Source: Herbidospora sakaeratensis (lineage in GTDB: Bacteria; Actinomycetota; Actinomycetes; Streptosporangiales; Streptosporangiaceae). Taken from it: a stretch of 64,000 nt of DNA. Shown here piece by piece: positions 10,760-33,455 of the stretch (its first letter is position 1; each line of letters opens with the position of its first letter). The notes under the pieces are model-generated. The model had not been told where the DNA came from. It saw only the letters and a list, made by a program, of their open reading frames with translations, and ran no database searches. The position numbers and the translations under genes are program-made. The DNA lies in assembly GCF_001570525.1 (NCBI RefSeq), contig NZ_BBXC01000009.1, positions 116,363-180,362 of the forward strand, given 5' to 3'.

Positions 10760-12643
10760 ATGGTGAGTGAAGGCGACGTGCTCTGGGTCCCATCGGCCGA
10801 GGTCATCCGGGATGCCCGGATCACCCGTTTCCAGGAGGCGGTCGGCCGGCCCGGCTCCTATGACGGGTTGTGGTCGTGGTCGGTGGAGGAGCCCGCCGCT
10901 TTCTGGACCGCCGTGTGGGATTACTTCGGCGTCGTCGGCGACCGTTCCGACGGTCCGGTCATAACCGGAGAAATGCCGCACGCATCGTGGTTTTCCGGCA
11001 GTCGTCTTAATTATGCGGAAAACGCGCTAAAAGGCCCTGGCGACCGTATTGCAGTGATATTTCGGGATGAATCGGGCGGGCGGCGGACGTACACGCTCGG
11101 AGAGTTGCGCGACGAAGTCGCGAAAGCGCGGGCCGGGCTGGTGGCACTGGGCGTCGGAACGGGCGACCGGGTGGCCGGATATCTGCCGAACATCCCCGAG
11201 GCGCTGATCGCCTTCCTGGCCACCGCCTCGCTGGGGGCGATCTGGTCGTCGTGCTCGCCCGACTTCGGGGCTCCGGCGATCATCGACCGGTTCACCCAGA
11301 TCGAGCCGAAGGTCCTGATCGCGGTCGACGGCTACACCTACAACGGCAAGTACTTCGACCGGACCGGTGTGGTCGCCGACATCGCGGCGCGGCTGCCCTC
11401 GCTCAACGCGACAGTCAGGGTCTCCGAGTGGGACTCCTTCACCCGGCCCGGCGACCTCGCCTTCGACCGGGTGCCCTTCGACCACCCGCTCTGGGTGCTC
11501 TACTCCTCCGGCACGACCGGCCTGCCCAAGCCCATCGTGCACGGGCACGGCGGCATCGTCGTCGAGCACCTGAAGTCGCTCACCTTCCACCAGGACCTCG
11601 GCGAGGGCGACCGGTTCTTCTGGTACACCACCACCGGCTGGATGATGTGGAACTACCTCGTCGGCGGCCTGCTGGTCGGCGCGACGGTCGTCCTGTACGA
11701 CGGCTCGGCCGCCCACCCCTCGACCGCCGCCCTGTGGGACCTCGTCGCCGACGAGGGCGTGACCTACTTCGGCACCGGCGCCCCCTACATCGTCGCCTCG
11801 ATGAAGGCCGGCCTGAAGCCGGCGGGACTCTCGGCGCTCAAGGGCGTCGGCTCGACCGGCTCGCCCCTGCCGCCCGAGGGCTTCGCCTGGGTCTACTCCG
11901 ACGTCTCGGGCGACGTCCAGCTCGGCTCGTTCTCCGGCGGCACCGACGTCTGCACCGGGTTCGTGGGCGCGGTGCGCACCCTGCCGGTGCGCGCGGGCGT
12001 CATCCCGTGCCGCTCGCTCGGGGCGCGCGTCGAGGCGTTCGACCCGGCGGGCGAGCCGGTGACCGGCGAGGTCGGCGAGCTCGTCATCACCGCGCCGATG
12101 CCCTCGATGCCGGTCATGTTCTGGAACGACCCCGACGGCCGCCGCTACCGCGAGTCGTACTTCGAGGAGTACCCCGGCGTCTGGCGGCACGGCGACTGGA
12201 TCAAGATCCGGCCCGACGGCGGCAGCGTCATCTACGGCCGCTCCGACTCGACCCTCAACCGGGGCGGGGTGCGGATGGGCACCAGCGAGTTCTACCGGGT
12301 GGTCGAGCGGTTCGAGGCCGTCGCCGACAGCCTCGTCATCGACACCGGCCGTCTCGGCCAGGAGGGCCGGCTGCTGCTGTACGTCGCCCTCGCCGACGGC
12401 CACGACCTCGGCGAGACCCTCGTCAAGGAGCTGAAGACGGCCCTGCGCACCGAGTTGTCGCCGCGCCACGTGCCCGACGAGATCACGGCCGTGCCGGGGA
12501 TCCCGCGCACGTTGTCGGGCAAGAAGCTCGAAGTGCCGGTGCGCAAGATCCTCCAGGGGGTGCCGGTCGAGCGGGCCGCCAACCCCGACGCGATGGCCAA
12601 CCCCGAGGTGCTGGCGTTCTTCACACCCCTTGCGGATGCCTGA
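10760..12643 (+). CDS. Acetoacetate-CoA ligase
   Basis: About 627 residues, an ANL-superfamily enzyme of the acetoacetyl-CoA synthetase type. It activates acetoacetate (ketone body, leucine or polymer breakdown) to acetoacetyl-CoA with ATP. The long N-terminal extension FWTAVWDYFGVV...HASWFSGSRLNYAENAL, the A3 loop YSSGTTGLPKPIVHGHGG, TTTGWMMWNYLVGGLL, the A8-A9 region and the terminal GKKLEVPVRKILQG are all typical. ATG 10760 is chosen because GGATGGGGG precedes it; ATG 10751 is possible. Its 3' end overlaps the convergent FAD oxidase gene by 23 bases. Confidence 0.9.
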   Translation: MVSEGDVLWVPSAEVIRDARITRFQEAVGRPGSYDGLWSWSVEEPAAFWTAVWDYFGVVGDRSDGPVITGEMPHASWFSGSRLNYAENALKGPGDRIAVIFRDESGGRRTYTLGELRDEVAKARAGLVALGVGTGDRVAGYLPNIPEALIAFLATASLGAIWSSCSPDFGAPAIIDRFTQIEPKVLIAVDGYTYNGKYFDRTGVVADIAARLPSLNATVRVSEWDSFTRPGDLAFDRVPFDHPLWVLYSSGTTGLPKPIVHGHGGIVVEHLKSLTFHQDLGEGDRFFWYTTTGWMMWNYLVGGLLVGATVVLYDGSAAHPSTAALWDLVADEGVTYFGTGAPYIVASMKAGLKPAGLSALKGVGSTGSPLPPEGFAWVYSDVSGDVQLGSFSGGTDVCTGFVGAVRTLPVRAGVIPCRSLGARVEAFDPAGEPVTGEVGELVITAPMPSMPVMFWNDPDGRRYRESYFEEYPGVWRHGDWIKIRPDGGSVIYGRSDSTLNRGGVRMGTSEFYRVVERFEAVADSLVIDTGRLGQEGRLLLYVALADGHDLGETLVKELKTALRTELSPRHVPDEITAVPGIPRTLSGKKLEVPVRKILQGVPVERAANPDAMANPEVLAFFTPLADA

Positions 12644-13985
12644 AGAACCCGGTCGGGTCGTAGACCTTCTTCACGGCCGCCAGCCGGGCGGCGTTCGGGC
12701 CGTAGTACTGGTCCTTATAGTCCTTTAGGGCCATATCGGGATAGTTAACGTAGGCATGCCGTCCGAGCCGCGGCGTCATCGCATCGCGAGCCGAGCGGAC
12801 CCAGGCACTTGCGCCGTCGAAGTGGCCGTAGTACTGGAGGCTGAACAGCGCCTTCCGGTGCGGGAACGCCGTCGCGCCGGGGGCCACCCGGCCGACCGCC
12901 CCGCCCAGCGCGTCGATCAGGACGGTGTGCCGTCCGGGCCGGCCCACCTGGGCGATGAGCGCCTTGACGGTCGCGTCGCTCATCTCGGCGTACGCGAAGT
13001 GGCTGCTGGCGCTGAACCGGTCGCGCGGCCCGGTGTGGCACGCCTCCAGGGTCGAGCAGCCGGCCATGAAGTACATCGCCTGGAGGTAACCCATCGACTT
13101 GACCGTCCGTGTCGACGGCGGGAAACCCGCCAGGAGGGCCTCACAACGCGATCTGGAGCCCAAATAGAGCCCGGTGACGGAGACGGACCGCCCCGGGTCC
13201 TGTGAGAGGTGCAGATTCGACCACAGCGCGTCGGGCGCCCCGGGGGCCCACCGTTGCCACTTCTTCACCACGGCGAACGCCTGCGACCACGGCCAGCGCA
13301 TCGTGAACACGGTGACGTCCCTGACGGGGTGGGTCTGGTAGGTGAAGGAGGTGGCGATGCCGAAGTTCCCGCCGCCGCCTCCCCGCAGCGCCCAGAACAG
13401 GTCGGGGTGGCTGTCGGCGGTGGCCGTGATCAGCTTTCCCGCGGCCGTCACGAGGGAGACGGCCTTCAGCACGTCGATCGTCAGTCCGTAGCGGCGCGCG
13501 ACGACCCCGATCCCGCCGCCCAGCGTCAGGCCGGCCACGCCGACCGTCGGGCACGAGCCCGCGGGGATGCTGACGCCGCTCTTGCCGAGGGTGGCGTAGA
13601 CGTCGATCAGCTTGGCCCCCGACCCGACCGTCGCCAGGCCGCCGGCCAGCTTCACGGCTTTGAGCTGGGAGACGTCCACGACCAGGCCCGATCCGGTCGA
13701 CCAGCCGGCGTACGAGTGGCCGCCCGACCGGGGGTGCACGACCAGGCCGTTGCGGCGGGCGAACCCCACGCAGGTCGCCACGTCGGCGGCGGAGGCGCAG
13801 TAGGCGACGGCCCGGGGGGTCGCGGTGTCGAAGGCGACGTTGAAAACGCGTTTGGCGGTGGCGTAGGAGGCGTCGCCGGGCCGTACGAGACGGCCCTTCA
13901 ACGTCCGGTCCAGTGCGGCCCAGTCAGGCGCCGCGCCCGCGAACGGCGCGAGCGCCGCCGCGGACAGAAATTCACGACGATCCAC
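12621..13985 (-). CDS. FAD-linked oxidase, berberine-bridge-enzyme type, probably Tat-exported
   Basis: 454 residues with a PCMH-type FAD domain and C-terminal BBE motif (YVNYPDMALKDYKDQYYG). Both covalent flavin anchors are present: His90 in HPRSGGHSYAGW and Cys145 in PAGSCPTVGVAGL, implying a bicovalently bound FAD and a high redox potential. The N-terminus MDRREFLSAAALAPF resembles a short twin-arginine signal. Such enzymes oxidise sugars, alkaloid-like or polyphenolic substrates with oxygen; the substrate here is unknown. The GTG at 13985 has GGGGAG 7-8 bases upstream. It lies 62 bases after the NuoF-like gene on the same strand and might belong to that redox cluster. Confidence 0.85.
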   Translation of the reverse strand: MDRREFLSAAALAPFAGAAPDWAALDRTLKGRLVRPGDASYATAKRVFNVAFDTATPRAVAYCASAADVATCVGFARRNGLVVHPRSGGHSYAGWSTGSGLVVDVSQLKAVKLAGGLATVGSGAKLIDVYATLGKSGVSIPAGSCPTVGVAGLTLGGGIGVVARRYGLTIDVLKAVSLVTAAGKLITATADSHPDLFWALRGGGGGNFGIATSFTYQTHPVRDVTVFTMRWPWSQAFAVVKKWQRWAPGAPDALWSNLHLSQDPGRSVSVTGLYLGSRSRCEALLAGFPPSTRTVKSMGYLQAMYFMAGCSTLEACHTGPRDRFSASSHFAYAEMSDATVKALIAQVGRPGRHTVLIDALGGAVGRVAPGATAFPHRKALFSLQYYGHFDGASAWVRSARDAMTPRLGRHAYVNYPDMALKDYKDQYYGPNAARLAAVKKVYDPTGFFRHPQGV

Positions 13986-14047: not shown

Positions 14048-15508
14048 TTACTTCCGGGAGTCGACTCGGAGCGCCAGCGCCGGGCACATCTCGACCGCCC
14101 GCTGCGCCTCGCTCTTGGCCCACGCCGGAACCGGCGAGTCCATGAACACCGGGAAGCCGTGGTGGTCGAGTTTCACCAGGTCGGGCATGAGGTGGGCGCA
14201 GAGGCCGTGGCCCTGGCAGCGGGTCCAGTCGACCACCAGCCGCACGTCGCTGGCCTCGGTGATCGGCATCGGCAGGGTGTTCTGCACGCCCCGGCCGCAC
14301 GAGCCGTTGATGATGTGCTCGTCGACGTCCTCGGCGAACGCCTCCAGGGCCGACAACACGAAGCGGGTCGTGCCGTCGGGGTGGAAGCACGCGCCCCGGC
14401 CCTTGACCGCCGTGGCGGCCGATTTCACCAGGTCGTGGGCCTGCGGGTCGCCCATGGTGAGCTCCGACAGGGCCCGCGCGAGCGCCGGCAGGCCGATGCG
14501 GCACGGGCCGCACTGCCCCGACGACTGCTGGGCGAGGTAGGCGGCGACCCGGACCGTCTCCCCGAGGGGACACGTGTCCGGGCCCAGCGGCACGATGATG
14601 CCCGCGCCGAGCTCACCGCCCGCCTGCTGCATGCCCCGGCGCGACACGATCGCGCCGTAGGCGTCGGCCGCGCTCAGCCACTTGCCGTGGTAGCCGCCGA
14701 TCAGCACGCCGTCCCCGACGTCCGCCTCGCACATGTCCAGCACCTGCGCCAGCGGCACCCCCGGCGTGACCTCCACGACCGAGGGCGACTTCACCGACCC
14801 GCTCACGCTGAGCAGGGTCGTGCCGGGCTCCTGCACGGTGCCGACGGAGCCGTACTCCTCCGGGCCCAGCTCGGCGAGCAGCGCGAGCTGGGCGAACGTC
14901 TCGGTGTTGGACAGCAGGGTGGGCAGTCCGCGCACCCCGGCGTCGCTGGTCCGGACCTTCCGCCCGGACGGCTGGCCCAGCTCGCCGTTCACCGCCCGGA
15001 CGAGGGACCCGCCCTCGCCCGAGATGAACCGCTCCTGGATGCCGGCCACCCGGACGTATCCGATGAGCCCGCGCTCGGCCACGGCCGCGCGCATCGAGCC
15101 CTCCGCCAGCTCACCCGCGGGGGTGGCGATGACCACCTCTTTGGCGTCCAGCGCACTGGCCGCCAGCAGCGCGCCCTCGAGCACGAGGTGCGGCTTGCGG
15201 GTGAGCAGCATCTTGTCCTTCATGCTGGCCGGCTCGCCTTCGGCGGCGTTGACCAGCACGACGGTGTCGGAGTTGCGCGCGTTGGCCTGGACGGCCCTGA
15301 GCTTGCGCGCGAACGGGAAGGCCGCCCCACCGCGTCCCCGCAGGTCGACCTCTTCAGCCAGTGAGATCAGTGAGTCGACGGACTGGCCGTCGAGTTTGCC
15401 GTGGATCTCGTAGTGAGTGTCGAGGTCCATCCGGCGGTGCTCGTCGAGGCCGGCGGTGAGCCGGGCCGGACCGAGCCTGCGGATCTTGGAGACGCGGTAG
15501 GGAATCAT
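14048..15508 (-). CDS. NuoF-like NADH/FMN flavoprotein fused to a C-terminal 3Fe-4S-type ferredoxin
   Basis: 486 residues. Residues about 45-300 match the NuoF FMN/NAD domain (LRGRGGAAFPFARKLRA, NAAEGEPASMKDK, FISGEGGSLVRA, SLBB region). Residues 325-405 match the iron-sulfur helical bundle, but the usual C-x2-C-x2-C is SSGQCGPCRIG, so the first cysteine is Ser330; Cys333, Cys336 and Cys374 remain. The last 65 residues form a small ferredoxin with CQGHGLC (431-437) and Cys475, the three-cysteine pattern of 3Fe-4S ferredoxins that serve P450s. I infer electron flow NAD(P)H to FMN to Fe-S to ferredoxin. The start lies 3 bases after the stop of the membrane heme-type gene, so both are surely co-transcribed. 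There is no NuoE partner nearby. Confidence 0.85.
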   Translation of the reverse strand: MIPYRVSKIRRLGPARLTAGLDEHRRMDLDTHYEIHGKLDGQSVDSLISLAEEVDLRGRGGAAFPFARKLRAVQANARNSDTVVLVNAAEGEPASMKDKMLLTRKPHLVLEGALLAASALDAKEVVIATPAGELAEGSMRAAVAERGLIGYVRVAGIQERFISGEGGSLVRAVNGELGQPSGRKVRTSDAGVRGLPTLLSNTETFAQLALLAELGPEEYGSVGTVQEPGTTLLSVSGSVKSPSVVEVTPGVPLAQVLDMCEADVGDGVLIGGYHGKWLSAADAYGAIVSRRGMQQAGGELGAGIIVPLGPDTCPLGETVRVAAYLAQQSSGQCGPCRIGLPALARALSELTMGDPQAHDLVKSAATAVKGRGACFHPDGTTRFVLSALEAFAEDVDEHIINGSCGRGVQNTLPMPITEASDVRLVVDWTRCQGHGLCAHLMPDLVKLDHHGFPVFMDSPVPAWAKSEAQRAVEMCPALALRVDSRK

Positions 15509-15511
15509 GTC

Positions 15512-16294
15512 TTAGACAACCCTCCTTAGCTTCTGGGGCTGGGCGGCCTGCTCGCGCTCGGCCAGCCTGTTCGTCTTGCGCTTGGCGTCCTCCTGCGGCA
15601 TCGGCAGCTCCTCCATCTCGTCCTGCATGGTCGTCTTCGGCCTGAGCGAGACGATCGCGCGGATCATGAGGGCGGTGCCGACGGCGACGATGCAGAGGAT
15701 GTAGCTCCACGCCACCCAGGGCGCGGGCGTCCGACCGGCCGCCAGGCCGTGCAGGATCGAGACGGGCCAGGCCAGATAGGCCAGGTCGTGCAGGCCACGC
15801 CAGATCCAGGGGTGGACGGCCATGGCGAACCGGCCGCGCATCACCCCGGTGGCGACGATCACGATGAACAGGTCGGACGCGACGGCGCCGGCCCCCACCG
15901 CCAGGTTGGTGGTGGGGATGACCGACCCGTACGACGGGACCAGCCCGGCCGCGATCTTCATGCCGATGTGGACGACCAGGAAGCCGACCCCGATCAGGGC
16001 GGCGCCCCGGTGCACGAGTTGTGCCCGGACGCGCCACCTGATCGGCAGGATCATGCGCTCGGACGTGAGAAGTCCCAGTCCGACGGTCGCCGTGAGCGCC
16101 ACGAGCGAGAAGACGCCCGCGTACAACGTGAGGAACTCCTGCGCCATCAGCAGGACCTGGGTGCTCAGGCCCAGACGGGCGCCGAGCAGTGATCCGGCCA
16201 TGATGGTGAACGCGAGAGAGCCCAGGACGATCCGAACGCCTCGTTTCTGGAGGTCGAAGCGTTCGGACCGCCGATGAGCCCGCCTTTTTGACAC
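15512..16294 (-). CDS. Ferric-reductase-like/cytochrome b-type transmembrane protein
   Basis: 260 residues with about six membrane helices between residues 20 and 215, then a charged cytoplasmic tail rich in Lys, Arg and Glu. Histidines in or near helices (QLVHRGAAL, LVVHIGMKI, AMAVHPWIWRGLHDLAYLAW, SILHGLAAG) can form bis-His heme pairs as in the ferric reductase-like and MsrQ/YedZ families. It could pass electrons across the membrane from the flavoprotein encoded 3 bases downstream. It lacks the FAD/NAD domain of true ferric reductases; the adjacent gene could supply this. The heme is inferred. Confidence 0.8.
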   Translation of the reverse strand: MSKRRAHRRSERFDLQKRGVRIVLGSLAFTIMAGSLLGARLGLSTQVLLMAQEFLTLYAGVFSLVALTATVGLGLLTSERMILPIRWRVRAQLVHRGAALIGVGFLVVHIGMKIAAGLVPSYGSVIPTTNLAVGAGAVASDLFIVIVATGVMRGRFAMAVHPWIWRGLHDLAYLAWPVSILHGLAAGRTPAPWVAWSYILCIVAVGTALMIRAIVSLRPKTTMQDEMEELPMPQEDAKRKTNRLAEREQAAQPQKLRRVV

Positions 16295-16342
16295 TGATTC
16301 CTCCGGTTAGGGGGGATCTGCCGAGGGCTCTGAGACCGCCGA

Positions 16343-17803
16343 TCAGCAGCGGCGATTACGGTTGATGCACTGCACCATGAAGTTCATGAGGTTGTTGGGC
16401 ATGACGTTGTGGAAGTCGGCGTGGTCGGTGATCGGGCTGTGCTTCTGCTCGGGGAACGCGTCCACGGCGAAGCTGGCGCCCTGCGGCACCGCGTAGGCCA
16501 GGGTCATGCGCAGCTGGGGAACGGCCTGGGTGCCCTGGGGGCAGCGGCCGCTCTGGTCGGGGAACACGATGTGCGTCCGGTGGTTGGCGCTGTCGGTGTT
16601 CTGACCGTCCCAGCAGCTCGGGAAGTCCAGGATGCGCATCACGAGGCTGCCTCTCGGACAGACCGGATACTTGTCGGAAGCCCGGTTCTGGAAACCGGAG
16701 CAGGTCCACTGCGCCCGCGCGTTGGCCGGACCGTTGGTGGCCGCCTTGGCGTCACCGGTGATCACACGCAGGAAGCGGGGCATCGCGACGACCCGGCTGA
16801 ACCGGTTGCCGCGGAACTGGAGCTGGACCGCACGCGGGGTCAGGATCTGGCCGACGTTGCCGTCGGCGAAGCCGCCGATCTCCGAACCGTCCTGGCCGGG
16901 CCGCGGGGGCTGGCCGGTCTGGGCCGGCTGGGGCTGCTGGCCGCCGTTGTTGCCGCCGTTGTTGTTCCCGCCGTTGTTGTTGTTGCCCCGGCCGCCGTTG
17001 TTGCCGCGGTTGCCGAAGCGGCTCTGGTTCTCGGGCTGGGGCTGCTGCCTGCTGAAGCTCTGCGCCTGCGCCGCGCCGTTGCCGGCGTTCGCATCGGGCT
17101 GCTGCTGGCTCTGGTCGGCCTGGCCGGTGTTCCCCGCCTGGTCATTGACGGGCTGGTCGCCTTGCTGCGCAGCCTGGTCATTGACGGCTTGATCGTTGGG
17201 AGCGGCCTGGTCGCCCTGCTGCTGCTGCTGTTGCTGTTGCTGCTGAGGCTGGGCGGAGGGGTCCTGCTGCTGCTGGTTCGGGTCCTGCTGCTGGTTCGGG
17301 TCCTGCTGTTGCTGGTTGGGGTCCTGCTGCTGTTGCTGCTGGCGGTTGTTCTGGTTGTTGTTCTGGCCCTGCAGCCTCAGGTCCGGCCGGAGGCGGAGGA
17401 TCGGCCAGAAGTACGCCGACCTGTCGCCGTTCCGGCAGGTCGTGCCGCCGGCGGCGAGTGACTGGTCGGTGGAGAACCCGCTGGTGGTGACGTTGCCCAC
17501 GTAGTCGTGGACGTGGTGCGCGCCGTTCGTCACACCCGGCGCGACGATGTGGTTGTCGGAGTTGCGGTGCCCTCTTTCGTTACGGCCACACTGCGAGGTG
17601 AACGATCCGCCACCTGCGACGACACCGTTCGCACGGCCGACGCGGCGGATGTCGACGAAGTCGCTCAGGGCCGGGCCGAGTGCGTCGCACTCGGCGCCGC
17701 CGATGCGTGGGTCGCAGGCCGCGAAGGCCGGCGTCGGGAAGCTCGGCAGGATCAGGGACCCGGCCAGCAGAGCTCCCGCCATGGCGAGGGCGCGTTTACG
17801 CAT
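16343..17803 (-). CDS. Secreted DUF1996 protein split by a 160-residue Gln/Asn-rich insert
   Basis: 486 residues. A signal peptide (MRKRALAMAG..., cleavage near AFA-AC at 28-29) is followed by the first part of a DUF1996 domain (histidine-rich NGAHHVHDYVG, then TTCRNGDRSAYFWP to residue 137). Residues about 145-306 are low complexity: QQQDPN repeats, DQA/NDQ repeats, then RGNNGGRGNNNNGG-type tracts. The domain resumes at about 307 (WTCSGFQNR, CPRGSLVMRILDFPSCWDG, HADFHNVMPNNLMNFMVQC). The second DUF1996 protein at 32511 has only a short loop at this point. The ATG at 17803 follows CAGGAGG. It is the second gene of the leftward redox cluster, 19 bases after the DUF4142 gene. DUF1996 function is not established. 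Confidence 0.85.
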   Translation of the reverse strand: MRKRALAMAGALLAGSLILPSFPTPAFAACDPRIGGAECDALGPALSDFVDIRRVGRANGVVAGGGSFTSQCGRNERGHRNSDNHIVAPGVTNGAHHVHDYVGNVTTSGFSTDQSLAAGGTTCRNGDRSAYFWPILRLRPDLRLQGQNNNQNNRQQQQQQDPNQQQQDPNQQQDPNQQQQDPSAQPQQQQQQQQQQGDQAAPNDQAVNDQAAQQGDQPVNDQAGNTGQADQSQQQPDANAGNGAAQAQSFSRQQPQPENQSRFGNRGNNGGRGNNNNGGNNNGGNNGGQQPQPAQTGQPPRPGQDGSEIGGFADGNVGQILTPRAVQLQFRGNRFSRVVAMPRFLRVITGDAKAATNGPANARAQWTCSGFQNRASDKYPVCPRGSLVMRILDFPSCWDGQNTDSANHRTHIVFPDQSGRCPQGTQAVPQLRMTLAYAVPQGASFAVDAFPEQKHSPITDHADFHNVMPNNLMNFMVQCINRNRRC

Positions 17804-17822
17804 GTTCTTCTTTTCCTCCTGG

Positions 17823-18413
17823 TTAGACCGGCGGGACCGGGAGCGCGGAGTAGTCCACCAGGCCGGTCTCCTCGAGCACACGCATGTGCTTCATGACGAC
17901 CACGTTGGCCTCCGCGGCGAAGGCGCGGATCCTCTCGTTCCGCGTCCCTGCGCGGATCGCGGCGACCGTGGCGAAGACCTTGCCGTGGGCGGCTCGCAGC
18001 CGGTCGGCGAAGATCTGGTCGAACTGGGCGCCGGTCGCGTTCGACATCTCACCCAGCCAGCGCTGCTGGTCGGGGTTGGGCTCGTTGGGGAGCAGCACGC
18101 CGAGTGCGGCGGCCTCCGCGCGGACCGCCTCGTCGAGCTTCGCGTGGTCGACCATGAGGTGGTTGCCCGCGATCTTGACCTTCTCGTTGGTCGAGCGCTC
18201 CTGAGCCCAGCGGCCGGCGGGGATCTCCCAGAGCCCCGCCCACCGCACCTTCACGAGGAAGTCCCTGTCGGCGGGACTCAACGGGCCCCACCGGGTGGAA
18301 GTGAAACCCTGCTGCGCCGTCGCCTGTTCTTGGGGCACGACGACGATGACGGCGACGGCCGCCGCGAACAGGAAAACCGCGAAGACCACGAGTTCCCCGA
18401 ACCGGAACCGCAT
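17823..18413 (-). CDS. DUF4142 secreted or membrane-anchored protein
   Basis: 196 residues: an N-terminal hydrophobic segment (VVFAVFLFAAAVAVIVVV), then a DUF4142 ferritin-like four-helix domain (SPADRDFLVKVRWAGLWEIPAG, HLMVDHAKLDEAVRAEA, ANVVVMKHMRVLEETG). DUF4142 proteins are usually periplasmic or secreted and of unknown role; helical bundles with paired His and Glu suggest metal or stress functions. A strong AGGAGG precedes the ATG. It is the first gene of the leftward operon, divergent from the ECF sigma factor at 18529, so that sigma factor may drive it. Confidence 0.85.
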   Translation of the reverse strand: MRFRFGELVVFAVFLFAAAVAVIVVVPQEQATAQQGFTSTRWGPLSPADRDFLVKVRWAGLWEIPAGRWAQERSTNEKVKIAGNHLMVDHAKLDEAVRAEAAALGVLLPNEPNPDQQRWLGEMSNATGAQFDQIFADRLRAAHGKVFATVAAIRAGTRNERIRAFAAEANVVVMKHMRVLEETGLVDYSALPVPPV

Positions 18414-18528
18414 GGCGCCTCCTCTCTTTCGGGGGGAGGTACGCGGGCTTGTGACGGATGGTTCAGGAATAGTTAGAAATGACGAGAGTTGTCAGAGTTG
18501 TGTACAGGCCACAAACCCTGATGCAAAT
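18414..18528. promoter_or_regulatory. Divergent promoter region of redox operon and ECF sigma gene
   Basis: The 115-base gap is much less GC-rich than the flanks. It contains a 9-bp-period direct repeat (AGAGTTGT at 18485 and 18494) and TTGTG/CACAA arms at 18499-18515. Both the DUF4142 operon (leftward) and the sigma gene (rightward) must start here. The exact -35 and -10 elements cannot be fixed by eye. Confidence 0.5.
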
Positions 18529-19098
18529 ATGTGGCCTGTGCGCCGACAACTCGACAGCCGGTTCGAGCGTCTGGACCCCGACGTTGACCCTGATTGGGAT
18601 GATCGCCTCATCAGGGAGCTCTATAACGAGTTCGGTGGTCCGTTGCTCCGTCAGGTCAGGCAGACGACCGGCAACGACCTTCAGTGGGCGGAGGACGTCG
18701 TTCAGGAGACGTTGCTTCGTGCCTGGCGTAACGCGGCGAAACTGACGTGGGAGAGGGGACTGCTCTGGGCATGGCTCCTCACCGTCTCTCGCCGCATCGT
18801 GATCGACGGCCGCCGCCGCCGCGGTGTCCGTCCTCGGGAGGTGGAACCTCCCGAAGCGGACAGCATCGCGGTGCCCGACGGTGCCGACAAGACCCTGGCG
18901 GCGATCGTCGTCGCCGACGCCTTGCGCGGCCTAAGCGCCGATCACCGAGAAGTTATCGAACAGACATACTTACGGGACCGTACGGTTAACGAGGCAGCAG
19001 TGATACTGGGGATACCTCCGGGTACTGTGAAATCGAGGCTGTACTACGCTCTGCGTTCCCTCCGCGGGGTCCTGAAGGAGAGGGGAGTGGCCAGCTGA
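18529..19098 (+). CDS. ECF-type RNA polymerase sigma factor
   Basis: 189 residues with sigma-70 region 2 (LYNEFGGPLLRQVRQ, DVVQETLLRAWRN, LLWAWLLTVSRRIVIDGRRRR) and region 4 (LSADHREVIEQTYLRDRTVNEAAVILGIPPGTVKSRLYYALRSLR). The stop overlaps the start of a zinc-finger anti-sigma gene (TGATG), the usual pairing. It is divergent from the DUF4142/DUF1996/redox operon, a likely target along with itself. ATG 18529 has no clear ribosome site; GTG 18538 is an alternative. Such sigma/ZAS pairs often sense redox or envelope stress. Confidence 0.9.
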   Translation: MWPVRRQLDSRFERLDPDVDPDWDDRLIRELYNEFGGPLLRQVRQTTGNDLQWAEDVVQETLLRAWRNAAKLTWERGLLWAWLLTVSRRIVIDGRRRRGVRPREVEPPEADSIAVPDGADKTLAAIVVADALRGLSADHREVIEQTYLRDRTVNEAAVILGIPPGTVKSRLYYALRSLRGVLKERGVAS

Positions 19099-19280
19099 TG
19101 TCCGAGTCGTCACACCACGAAGTGGCGGCCTACGCCCTCGGGGTGCTTGACGACGCCGACGTCGAGGCCTTCGAACGCCACCTCGACGCGTGCGAGCGGT
19201 GCCGGCAGGAACTCAAGGTGATGGCCGAACTGCCCGGCCTGCTCGATGACGTGAAGTCCTCATCGGAGCGAACCAACTAA
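19098..19280 (+). CDS. Minimal zinc-binding anti-sigma factor
   Basis: Only 60 residues, comprising the ZAS fold alone: HEVAAYALGVLDDADVEAFE and the HxxxCxxC motif RHLDACERC. There is no membrane segment and no sensor domain, whereas related anti-sigma factors usually have both. It probably binds the sigma factor encoded just upstream and may release it when the zinc-thiol site is oxidised. A strong terminator begins 14 bases after the stop, so the gene is not a fragment continuing downstream. Confidence 0.8.
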   Translation: MSESSHHEVAAYALGVLDDADVEAFERHLDACERCRQELKVMAELPGLLDDVKSSSERTN

Positions 19281-32510: not shown

Positions 32511-33455
32511 TCAGGGCTTGTGCTGGTCGATTCCGTAGCCGTTGCACTGGCGTCCGCCGTTGATGCAGTGTTTCACCAGTTCGGCCTGCCGGTTGCCCGA
32601 CCACGCCTCCATGAAGTCGTAGTGGAAGGAGTAGCTCGCGCCGGAGGAGTAGGCGAGGCCGTCGGTCTTTCCGCCCGGGAGCTTGTAGGGGACCTTGATC
32701 TCCAGCATCGGCAGCGGGACCGGGAACGCCGCCGGGCAGACGCTCTTCACCGGGTAGGCCATGTGGCTCTTGTGGTCGGGCGAGTCGAGGTCGCGGCCGT
32801 TCCAGCAGCTCGGGGCCTTCAGGCGGACGATCAGCGAGCTGCCTGACGGGCAGGACTTCGGGAAGGTGGTGAAGGTGCCGCCGCCGCAGGTCCAGGTGCC
32901 CTGGAAGTCGGCGGCGGAAGCGGTGCGCATGTCGCCCACGATCAGCCGGAAGCCGGCCGGGAAGGGCTGGACCGTGCGGTAGTCCTTGACGCCTGACTTG
33001 TAGTACGTCGTCACGATCGTCGGGTCCACCACCTTGCCGTTCTGGTACAGCGTGGGGATCCAGTAGGCGGACTTGTCCATGGTGTCCTGGCAGCTCGACC
33101 CGCCTGCCAGGAGGGAGGTCCTGGTCGACTTGGCGTTCGTGGTCGGGTTCCCGGCGAAGGTGTGGTTGTGGGCCGCGCCCGGCAGGCCCGGATAGACGAT
33201 CGGGTCGTCCGACAGGTGGTGGGTGACCTTGCAGTTCGCGTGGATCTCGCGGTACTGGGCGAACGGCGGCGGGCCGGAGAACGTCGGGACCGGGAGCGGC
33301 TTCGCCGTGGGGTACGGCGTGGCCACCGCCGCCGGGCCCGCAGTGGTGGCCGAGGCCGGGATCAGGAACGGGCGCGCGGCGAGCAGCAGGCCCGCGGCGA
33401 GCAGAGTCGTCCCCGCCGCCCGGCTCCATTGGCGCCGCCGGGTGTGGTCTGACAT
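32511..33455 (-). CDS. Secreted DUF1996 protein
   Basis: 314 residues. An N-terminal signal or anchor (SRAAGTTLLAAGLLLAARPFL) and a Pro/Thr linker precede a full DUF1996 domain: HANCKVTHHLSDDPIVYPG, GAAHNHTFAGN, CQDTMDKSAYWIPTLYQNGK, TWTCGGGTFTTFPKSCPSGSSL, APSCWNGRDLDSPDHKSHMAYP and SYSFHYDFMEAWSG. Cysteines are paired as in the family, suggesting disulfides. It is a paralogue of the protein at 16343 without its Gln/Asn-rich insert. Function is unknown; DUF1996 also occurs in fungal secreted and WSC-domain proteins. It is probably monocistronic. Confidence 0.85.
   Translation of the reverse strand: MSDHTRRRQWSRAAGTTLLAAGLLLAARPFLIPASATTAGPAAVATPYPTAKPLPVPTFSGPPPFAQYREIHANCKVTHHLSDDPIVYPGLPGAAHNHTFAGNPTTNAKSTRTSLLAGGSSCQDTMDKSAYWIPTLYQNGKVVDPTIVTTYYKSGVKDYRTVQPFPAGFRLIVGDMRTASAADFQGTWTCGGGTFTTFPKSCPSGSSLIVRLKAPSCWNGRDLDSPDHKSHMAYPVKSVCPAAFPVPLPMLEIKVPYKLPGGKTDGLAYSSGASYSFHYDFMEAWSGNRQAELVKHCINGGRQCNGYGIDQHKP

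Follow-up and report, generated by a model that had tools for sequence, protein, structure and literature searches.

What task could bring together, in one actinobacterial locus, a flavoprotein–ferredoxin fusion, a membrane protein of heme type, two exported proteins and a sigma factor? The question is raised by a stretch of 64,000 nucleotides of Herbidospora sakaeratensis DNA (hereafter the window, at its full length), in which a minus-strand operon encodes, in order of transcription, a DUF4142 protein, a DUF1996 protein (after 19 bases), the membrane protein (MEM, after 48), the NuoF-like flavoprotein with its fused ferredoxin (NUOF, after 3) and a berberine-like FAD oxidase (after 62). Diverging from it on the plus strand are the gene for an extracytoplasmic function (ECF) sigma factor and then the gene for a zinc anti-sigma protein, whose start overlaps the sigma stop. 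The genes for NUOF, MEM, DUF1996, DUF4142, the sigma factor and the anti-sigma protein had all been reported in an earlier note on this DNA, and all were found in their places. MEM was 92–99 % identical to the MEM of six named Herbidospora species, and the window is thus Herbidospora-like. The clustering of the operon genes is not due to chance; the cluster is real and co-conserved in Herbidospora and related soil actinobacteria, and it is probably co-regulated. The best explanation of the whole, to which we assign a probability of about 0.5, is an electron conduit across the membrane that has become part of a small envelope regulon.

Co-conservation was assessed in 67 loci, made up of 60 chosen for genus spread from the MEM matches (104 of 200 genomes) and eight named loci, less L041, whose contig is already represented by L091; L066 runs to the end of its contig. 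The loci spanned 7–20 kb around MEM, and gene starts in the relatives were set by script. NUOF was present in 65 loci, DUF4142 in 56, DUF1996 in 51 and sigma-like matches in 43, with the four genes MEM, NUOF, DUF4142 and DUF1996 occurring together in 49 loci from 18 genera, within spans of 3.9–7.1 kb. Gene order in the cluster varied among genera, and GDH, BBE and ACACS, which flank the Herbidospora cluster, were absent from 20 of the 49 complete loci. This indicates that the linkage has survived rearrangement and is not just an inherited neighbourhood. The 200 genomes of the order, which are related and not independent, comprised 99 with both MEM and DUF1996, five with MEM only, six with DUF1996 only and 90 with neither; the six DUF1996-only genomes contained only another, high-scoring DUF1996 type. 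A sample of the class (197 genomes, MEM in 59 and DUF1996 in 30) included 20 genomes whose DUF1996 is of the divergent type, all of them with MEM, and ten with only the other type, two of them with MEM. Outside the order, 20 MEM loci were opened and 19 had NUOF; MEM with NUOF is the broader unit.

A common promoter was associated with these loci. The pattern TGAACC-N16/17-CGTA was located upstream of DUF4142, on the same strand and within 1200 bases, in 49 of 56 loci (17 of 20 genera), as compared with 0.3 loci expected from its density elsewhere in the same DNA and with an average of 0.1 and at most 2 of 56 in a letter-shuffle control. The spacer was 16 bases in 44 loci and 17 in five, and its letters were variable. 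The copy in the window occupies 18440..18465 on the minus strand (G000:C9:134802-134827), 26 bases ahead of the DUF4142 start. Some genera have an SCO0930-like Lipoprotein_15 gene before DUF4142, and there the site lies upstream of the Lipoprotein_15 gene; the promoter is also retained in several clusters that have no sigma gene of their own. This promoter footprint makes the sigma control of the operon that had been suggested earlier likely.

When 13 genomes were scanned for the site, three of them drew attention to TIGR03118 genes. The TIGR03118 family comprised 15 genes in 18 genomes, and 12 of the 15 had a strict site upstream (9 of 12 once the three genes that had given rise to the idea were removed). 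An exported TIGR03118 protein with the same ECF promoter was seen across genera (L106, on G000:C23, and L165–L179). That this unlinked gene shares the operon promoter argues for a real regulon, in which the operon and TIGR03118 would form a small set under a common ECF promoter. The genes behind sites were surveyed in 34 loci, 30 of which stand for the 61 sites of 12 genomes. Single sites also preceded genes for PepSY_TM (G083), DUF305 (G144) and a lipoprotein (G000, G059). Small putative lipoproteins from two genera (L103 and L117) start 8–9 bases after a perfect TGAACC-N14-CGCGTA; they had no Pfam match, and their likeness to each other was judged by eye.

The divergent sigma factor (18529..19098, plus strand) is the likely reader of the operon promoter. 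Its start is probably the ATG at 18529, which is preferred because the alternative upstream start at 18439 would overlap the promoter. A perfect 10-base inverted repeat, ACAGGCCACA/TGTGGCCTGT (window 18504-18513 / 18530-18539), overlaps this likely start codon. The sigma factor scored 186.5 bits, below the curated cut-off of 202 bits for PRK09645, which we take to be SigL. The anti-sigma protein (19098..19280, plus strand; 60 amino acids; zf-HC2 match 4.9e-7) is soluble and contains the motif HxxxCxxC, present in all 40 distinct anti-sigma sequences; 36 of these were soluble and 59–74 amino acids in length, and four had one membrane helix. The HxxxCxxC anti-sigma protein RslA is described, in the part of the publication consulted, as losing its zinc on oxidation and letting SigL go (PMC2877774). 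The Mycobacterium SigL-RslA pair resembles the present one in its ECF sigma factor, its HxxxCxxC anti-sigma protein and a CG-T at -10, but the anti-sigma proteins here are mostly short and soluble and the -10 element is CGTA and not of the CG-TG type. By analogy, we infer that the anti-sigma protein would sense redox state.

How electrons might cross the membrane depends on MEM (15512..16294, minus strand), a six-helix protein with two histidine pairs (H95/H109 and H169/H182). All 30 relatives have these four histidines, and the pairs, spaced 14 and 13 residues, are located on helices 85–115 and 162–185. The structural model contained six membrane helices (predicted local distance difference test score, pLDDT, 81), and its ten best Foldseek matches in the PDB were to SpNOX, NOX5, STEAP1/2/4 and cytochrome b561, with probabilities of 0.87–1.00. 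The MEM of the window had no significant Pfam match; among the 30 relatives, 13 matched PF01794 at E<=1, the best with 1.4e-9, and a PDB sequence profile search with MEM gave nothing at about E<=0.3, the best being SpNOX at 0.33. The ferric-reductase kinship claimed in the earlier note therefore rests on relatives and fold, and finds no Pfam match in the protein itself. As to the heme-type character that it also proposed, the invariant histidines, the relatives and the modelled fold suggest that MEM is likely a two-heme conduit. MEM is similar to NADPH oxidases, STEAP proteins and cytochrome b561, its top fold matches, in having six helices and two histidine pairs, but has no nucleotide-binding domain of its own, and its donor would be a separate protein.

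The candidate donor, NUOF (14048..15508, minus strand), comprises Complex1_51K (1.4e-29), SLBB (weak), NADH_4Fe-4S (4.8e-16) and Fer4_15 (2.4e-13) domains in Pfam, the last being a ferredoxin of the form CxxHxxC...CP. Among 29 relatives, GRGG and E90/E92 of the flavin region were invariant, while E165 of the NADH region was retained in 26 and was Gln in three. The N3 cluster site was degenerate in all 29, with the first of its four cysteines replaced by Ser (n=6) or Ala (n=23) and the other three invariant. The ferredoxin domain was present in 27 of the 29, and every one of these 27 had the motif CxxHxxC(X)nCP, including the later cysteine. NUOF of L080 and L081 had neither the ferredoxin domain nor the first N3 cysteine, indicating that the loss of this cysteine did not simply follow the fusion. 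Ferredoxins of the CxxHxxC type have been isolated as [3Fe-4S] proteins that serve P450s, according to an excerpt of PMC6237146. NUOF scored 177.9 bits against the complex I NuoF equivalog (cut-off 558.65), and this low score, with the missing N3 cysteine, ruled out a fragment of complex I. NUOF shares an FMN-binding and SLBB region and three of four N3 cysteines with complex I NuoF and HydB-type subunits, but differs from them in the replaced cysteine, the fused ferredoxin and a location away from complex I genes. The genome contains three further NuoF-like open frames.

On the other side of the membrane, the candidate partners are the DUF1996 protein (16343..17803, minus strand; DUF1996 match 2.2e-20), which is exported and has a long Q/N-rich insert, and the DUF4142 protein (17823..18413, minus strand; DUF4142 match 2.5e-23). 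The DUF1996 start was set to the ATG at 17803 by the position of the ribosome-binding site. DUF4142 has a single strong hydrophobic helix at its N-terminus and is probably anchored in the membrane, facing outside; two exported proteins upstream on the same strand, as first noted, are confirmed, with the amendment that one of them is probably membrane-bound. In DUF1996, H97-x-H99, H411, H461-x-D463 and six cysteines were invariant in 28 of 28 sequences, and an H-x-H and H-x-D signature is common to the fungal DUF1996 proteins treated in the available sections of PMC4738358. A second, unlinked DUF1996 gene in the window (32511-33455, minus strand; 314 amino acids), of the other, higher-scoring type, has the motifs HNH and HYD; DUF1996 is matched five times in the whole genome. 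A metal site in DUF1996 is plausible because the two motifs are kept in relatives, in fungal proteins and in this second protein. In 26 DUF4142 sequences H90 was invariant, and E63, H143 and H176 were each present in at least 90 %. PDB sequence profile searches with DUF1996 and with DUF4142 gave nothing at about E<=0.3. The DUF305 protein behind the promoter in G144 matched CopM in the PDB (1.3e-9) and DUF4142 weakly (1.2e-5, just below the cut-off), and by these matches the DUF4142 family is related to DUF305. The association of DUF1996 with DUF4142 may extend beyond the MEM loci: at L199 (G059:C48), a site apart from MEM, some 2 kb separate a DUF4142-like gene from a DUF1996 of the other type.

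The operon probably ends in an accessory gene, that for the berberine-bridge-like FAD oxidase (12621..13985, minus strand), which has a twin-arginine start (MDRREFL) and was missing from the earlier gene list. Of the 67 loci, 24 (seven genera) have such a gene directly behind NUOF and on its strand, and 23 of the proteins have the twin-arginine (Tat) motif. Other neighbours were also seen: the g12 and g18 loci have an M23-peptidase-like gene ahead of MEM, followed in one by a penicillin-binding protein. Second MEM/NUOF pairs, without DUF4142 and DUF1996, occur at L073, L075, L078, L079, L088, L090, L094 and L101, those at L079, L088 and L090 adjoining an M23-peptidase-like gene.

Whether this combination is new was answered in part by the literature. 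The earlier statement that no such pathway had been described has to be withdrawn, as an MsrQ-like (PF01794) and NuoF-like (PF10589) arrangement, proposed as an NAD(P)H-fed conduit, is reported for 31 actinobacterial flavinylation clusters, with FMN_bind and ApbE typical, in the part of PMC8238504 that was available. Those clusters and the present one have in common a ferric-reductase-like membrane protein, a NuoF-like cytosolic donor and a predicted route from NAD(P)H to the outside; in contrast, as far as that part describes them, they were collected around ApbE/FMN_bind, whereas here DUF4142, DUF1996, BBE, the ferredoxin fusion and the ECF promoter are found. FMN_bind was absent from the genome itself, on which ground a flavinylation system was rejected, and from the interior of MEM loci in 32 + 19 genomes, ApbE itself not having been searched. 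In its presumed working the cluster resembles an MsrQ-like/NuoF-like system, of which it is not a demonstrated member. Within the open PMC literature, DUF1996 and DUF4142 appeared together only in a database listing, TIGR03118 or PF03640 paired with other families gave nothing on such a cluster, and the pairing of NuoF-like with ferric-reductase proteins gave only PMC8238504.

In the conduit that we propose, NAD(P)H would reduce the flavin of NUOF, and electrons would pass the remaining iron–sulfur site and then the fused [3Fe-4S]-type ferredoxin. They would next reach two b-type hemes, expected from sequence and fold between the histidine pairs of MEM, and cross the membrane to DUF4142 and DUF1996, whose conserved His/Asp/Glu sets would suit metal binding; in some genera they may also reach the Tat-exported flavin oxidase. 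The route would probably serve reduction or redox upkeep, either of a metal (iron or copper) bound in the envelope or of these metalloproteins. A shared ECF promoter would drive both the operon and the unlinked exported TIGR03118 gene, with the divergent sigma factor as the likely reader, and the HxxxCxxC anti-sigma protein would, in the manner of RslA, lose zinc on oxidation and release the sigma factor. The direction, the acceptor and the signal of this route are what we infer. A further proposal, of a distinct actinobacterial outward route without flavinylated carriers, in which a degenerate-N3 NUOF with fused ferredoxin feeds a two-heme MEM and this the exported metalloproteins DUF1996 (HxH...HxD) and DUF4142, in a redox-sensed ECF regulon with TIGR03118 as a further member, is tentative.

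A number of observations weigh against a conduit within a regulon. The fold matches of MEM had E-values of only 0.03–0.5, with none <=0.001, and the DUF1996 model was weak (pLDDT 64) and had no fold match. Seven of the 56 loci had no promoter: L056, L060, L065 (g12), L062 (g38), L068, L070 and L076 (g3). Perfect sites numbered 61 versus 13 for the reversed control in 12 relatives, with small and noisy counts per genome, and 4 versus 2 in the genome itself; a regulon drawn from this genome-wide pattern alone was dropped as too noisy. NUOF was absent from L060 and L065, which have MEM, DUF4142 and DUF1996, and MEM and NUOF stood alone, without DUF4142 and DUF1996, in 10 of 67 loci uninterrupted by a contig end. 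The DUF4142 family was found in 195 of the 200 genomes of the order, so its presence is uninformative. Outside the family, DUF1996 and MEM lay apart in 14 of the 15 sampled genomes with both; G332 alone has the two together, at L148, where DUF4142, NUOF and also an SCO0930-like lipoprotein are present. The nineteen DUF1996 regions examined outside the family had no DUF4142 and no promoter nearby, and one of them (the second copy in G332) adjoins a sigma/anti-sigma pair. The idea that DUF1996 always travels with MEM thus failed outside the family, and the predicted co-conservation stands within it (49 of 67 loci) and gives way to scattered genes beyond it.

These separations could also be explained if DUF4142, DUF1996 and TIGR03118 were structural or metal-binding members of an envelope-stress regulon, with MEM and NUOF merely co-transcribed and serving another pathway. 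Loci with MEM and NUOF alone fit this view, as does the sensitivity of Beauveria DUF1996 deletions to cell-wall, osmotic, oxidative and metal stress described in the consulted part of PMC4738358. However, the divergent DUF1996 type was always accompanied by MEM even when unlinked (20 of 20), and linkage within the family persists through rearrangement; we consider this explanation unlikely. Similarly doubtful is a tie of MEM to the quinone pool like that of MsrQ, with quinol or NUOF feeding MEM and the exported partners acting in repair or as chaperones and not as terminal acceptors. MsrQ, homologous to the MsrQ-like PF01794 proteins, binds quinone, as stated in an excerpt of PMC8238504, and PF01794 is matched by 13 of 30 MEM relatives, but NUOF adjoins MEM in 65 of 67 loci and the two genes mostly overlap or nearly touch (nine loci measured), which points to a direct cytosolic donor.

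Electrons might instead flow inward, an exported flavin oxidase or metalloprotein being oxidised outside and MEM and NUOF returning electrons to NAD+ or ferredoxin. The Tat-type oxidase behind NUOF in seven genera would suit such a route, but it is absent from other genera and berberine-type enzymes normally hand their electrons to oxygen, making inward flow improbable. That NUOF is a cytochrome P450 reductase acting through its own ferredoxin, unrelated to MEM, is highly improbable: CxxHxxC ferredoxins do serve P450 enzymes (PMC6237146, in the portion seen), but no P450 was found among the scanned genes of the locus and MEM is the constant partner of NUOF.

The preferred explanation, a transmembrane electron conduit within a small envelope regulon, links DUF1996, DUF4142 and TIGR03118, all three of unknown function, to one redox module and one promoter, which opens their role to testing. 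In fungi, too, DUF1996 is widespread, and its loss there leads to stress and metal sensitivity, according to part of PMC4738358. The findings suggest that NuoF-like/ferric-reductase-like conduits extend beyond flavinylated carriers, and the outward route, if true, would give a first biochemical role to the three families.

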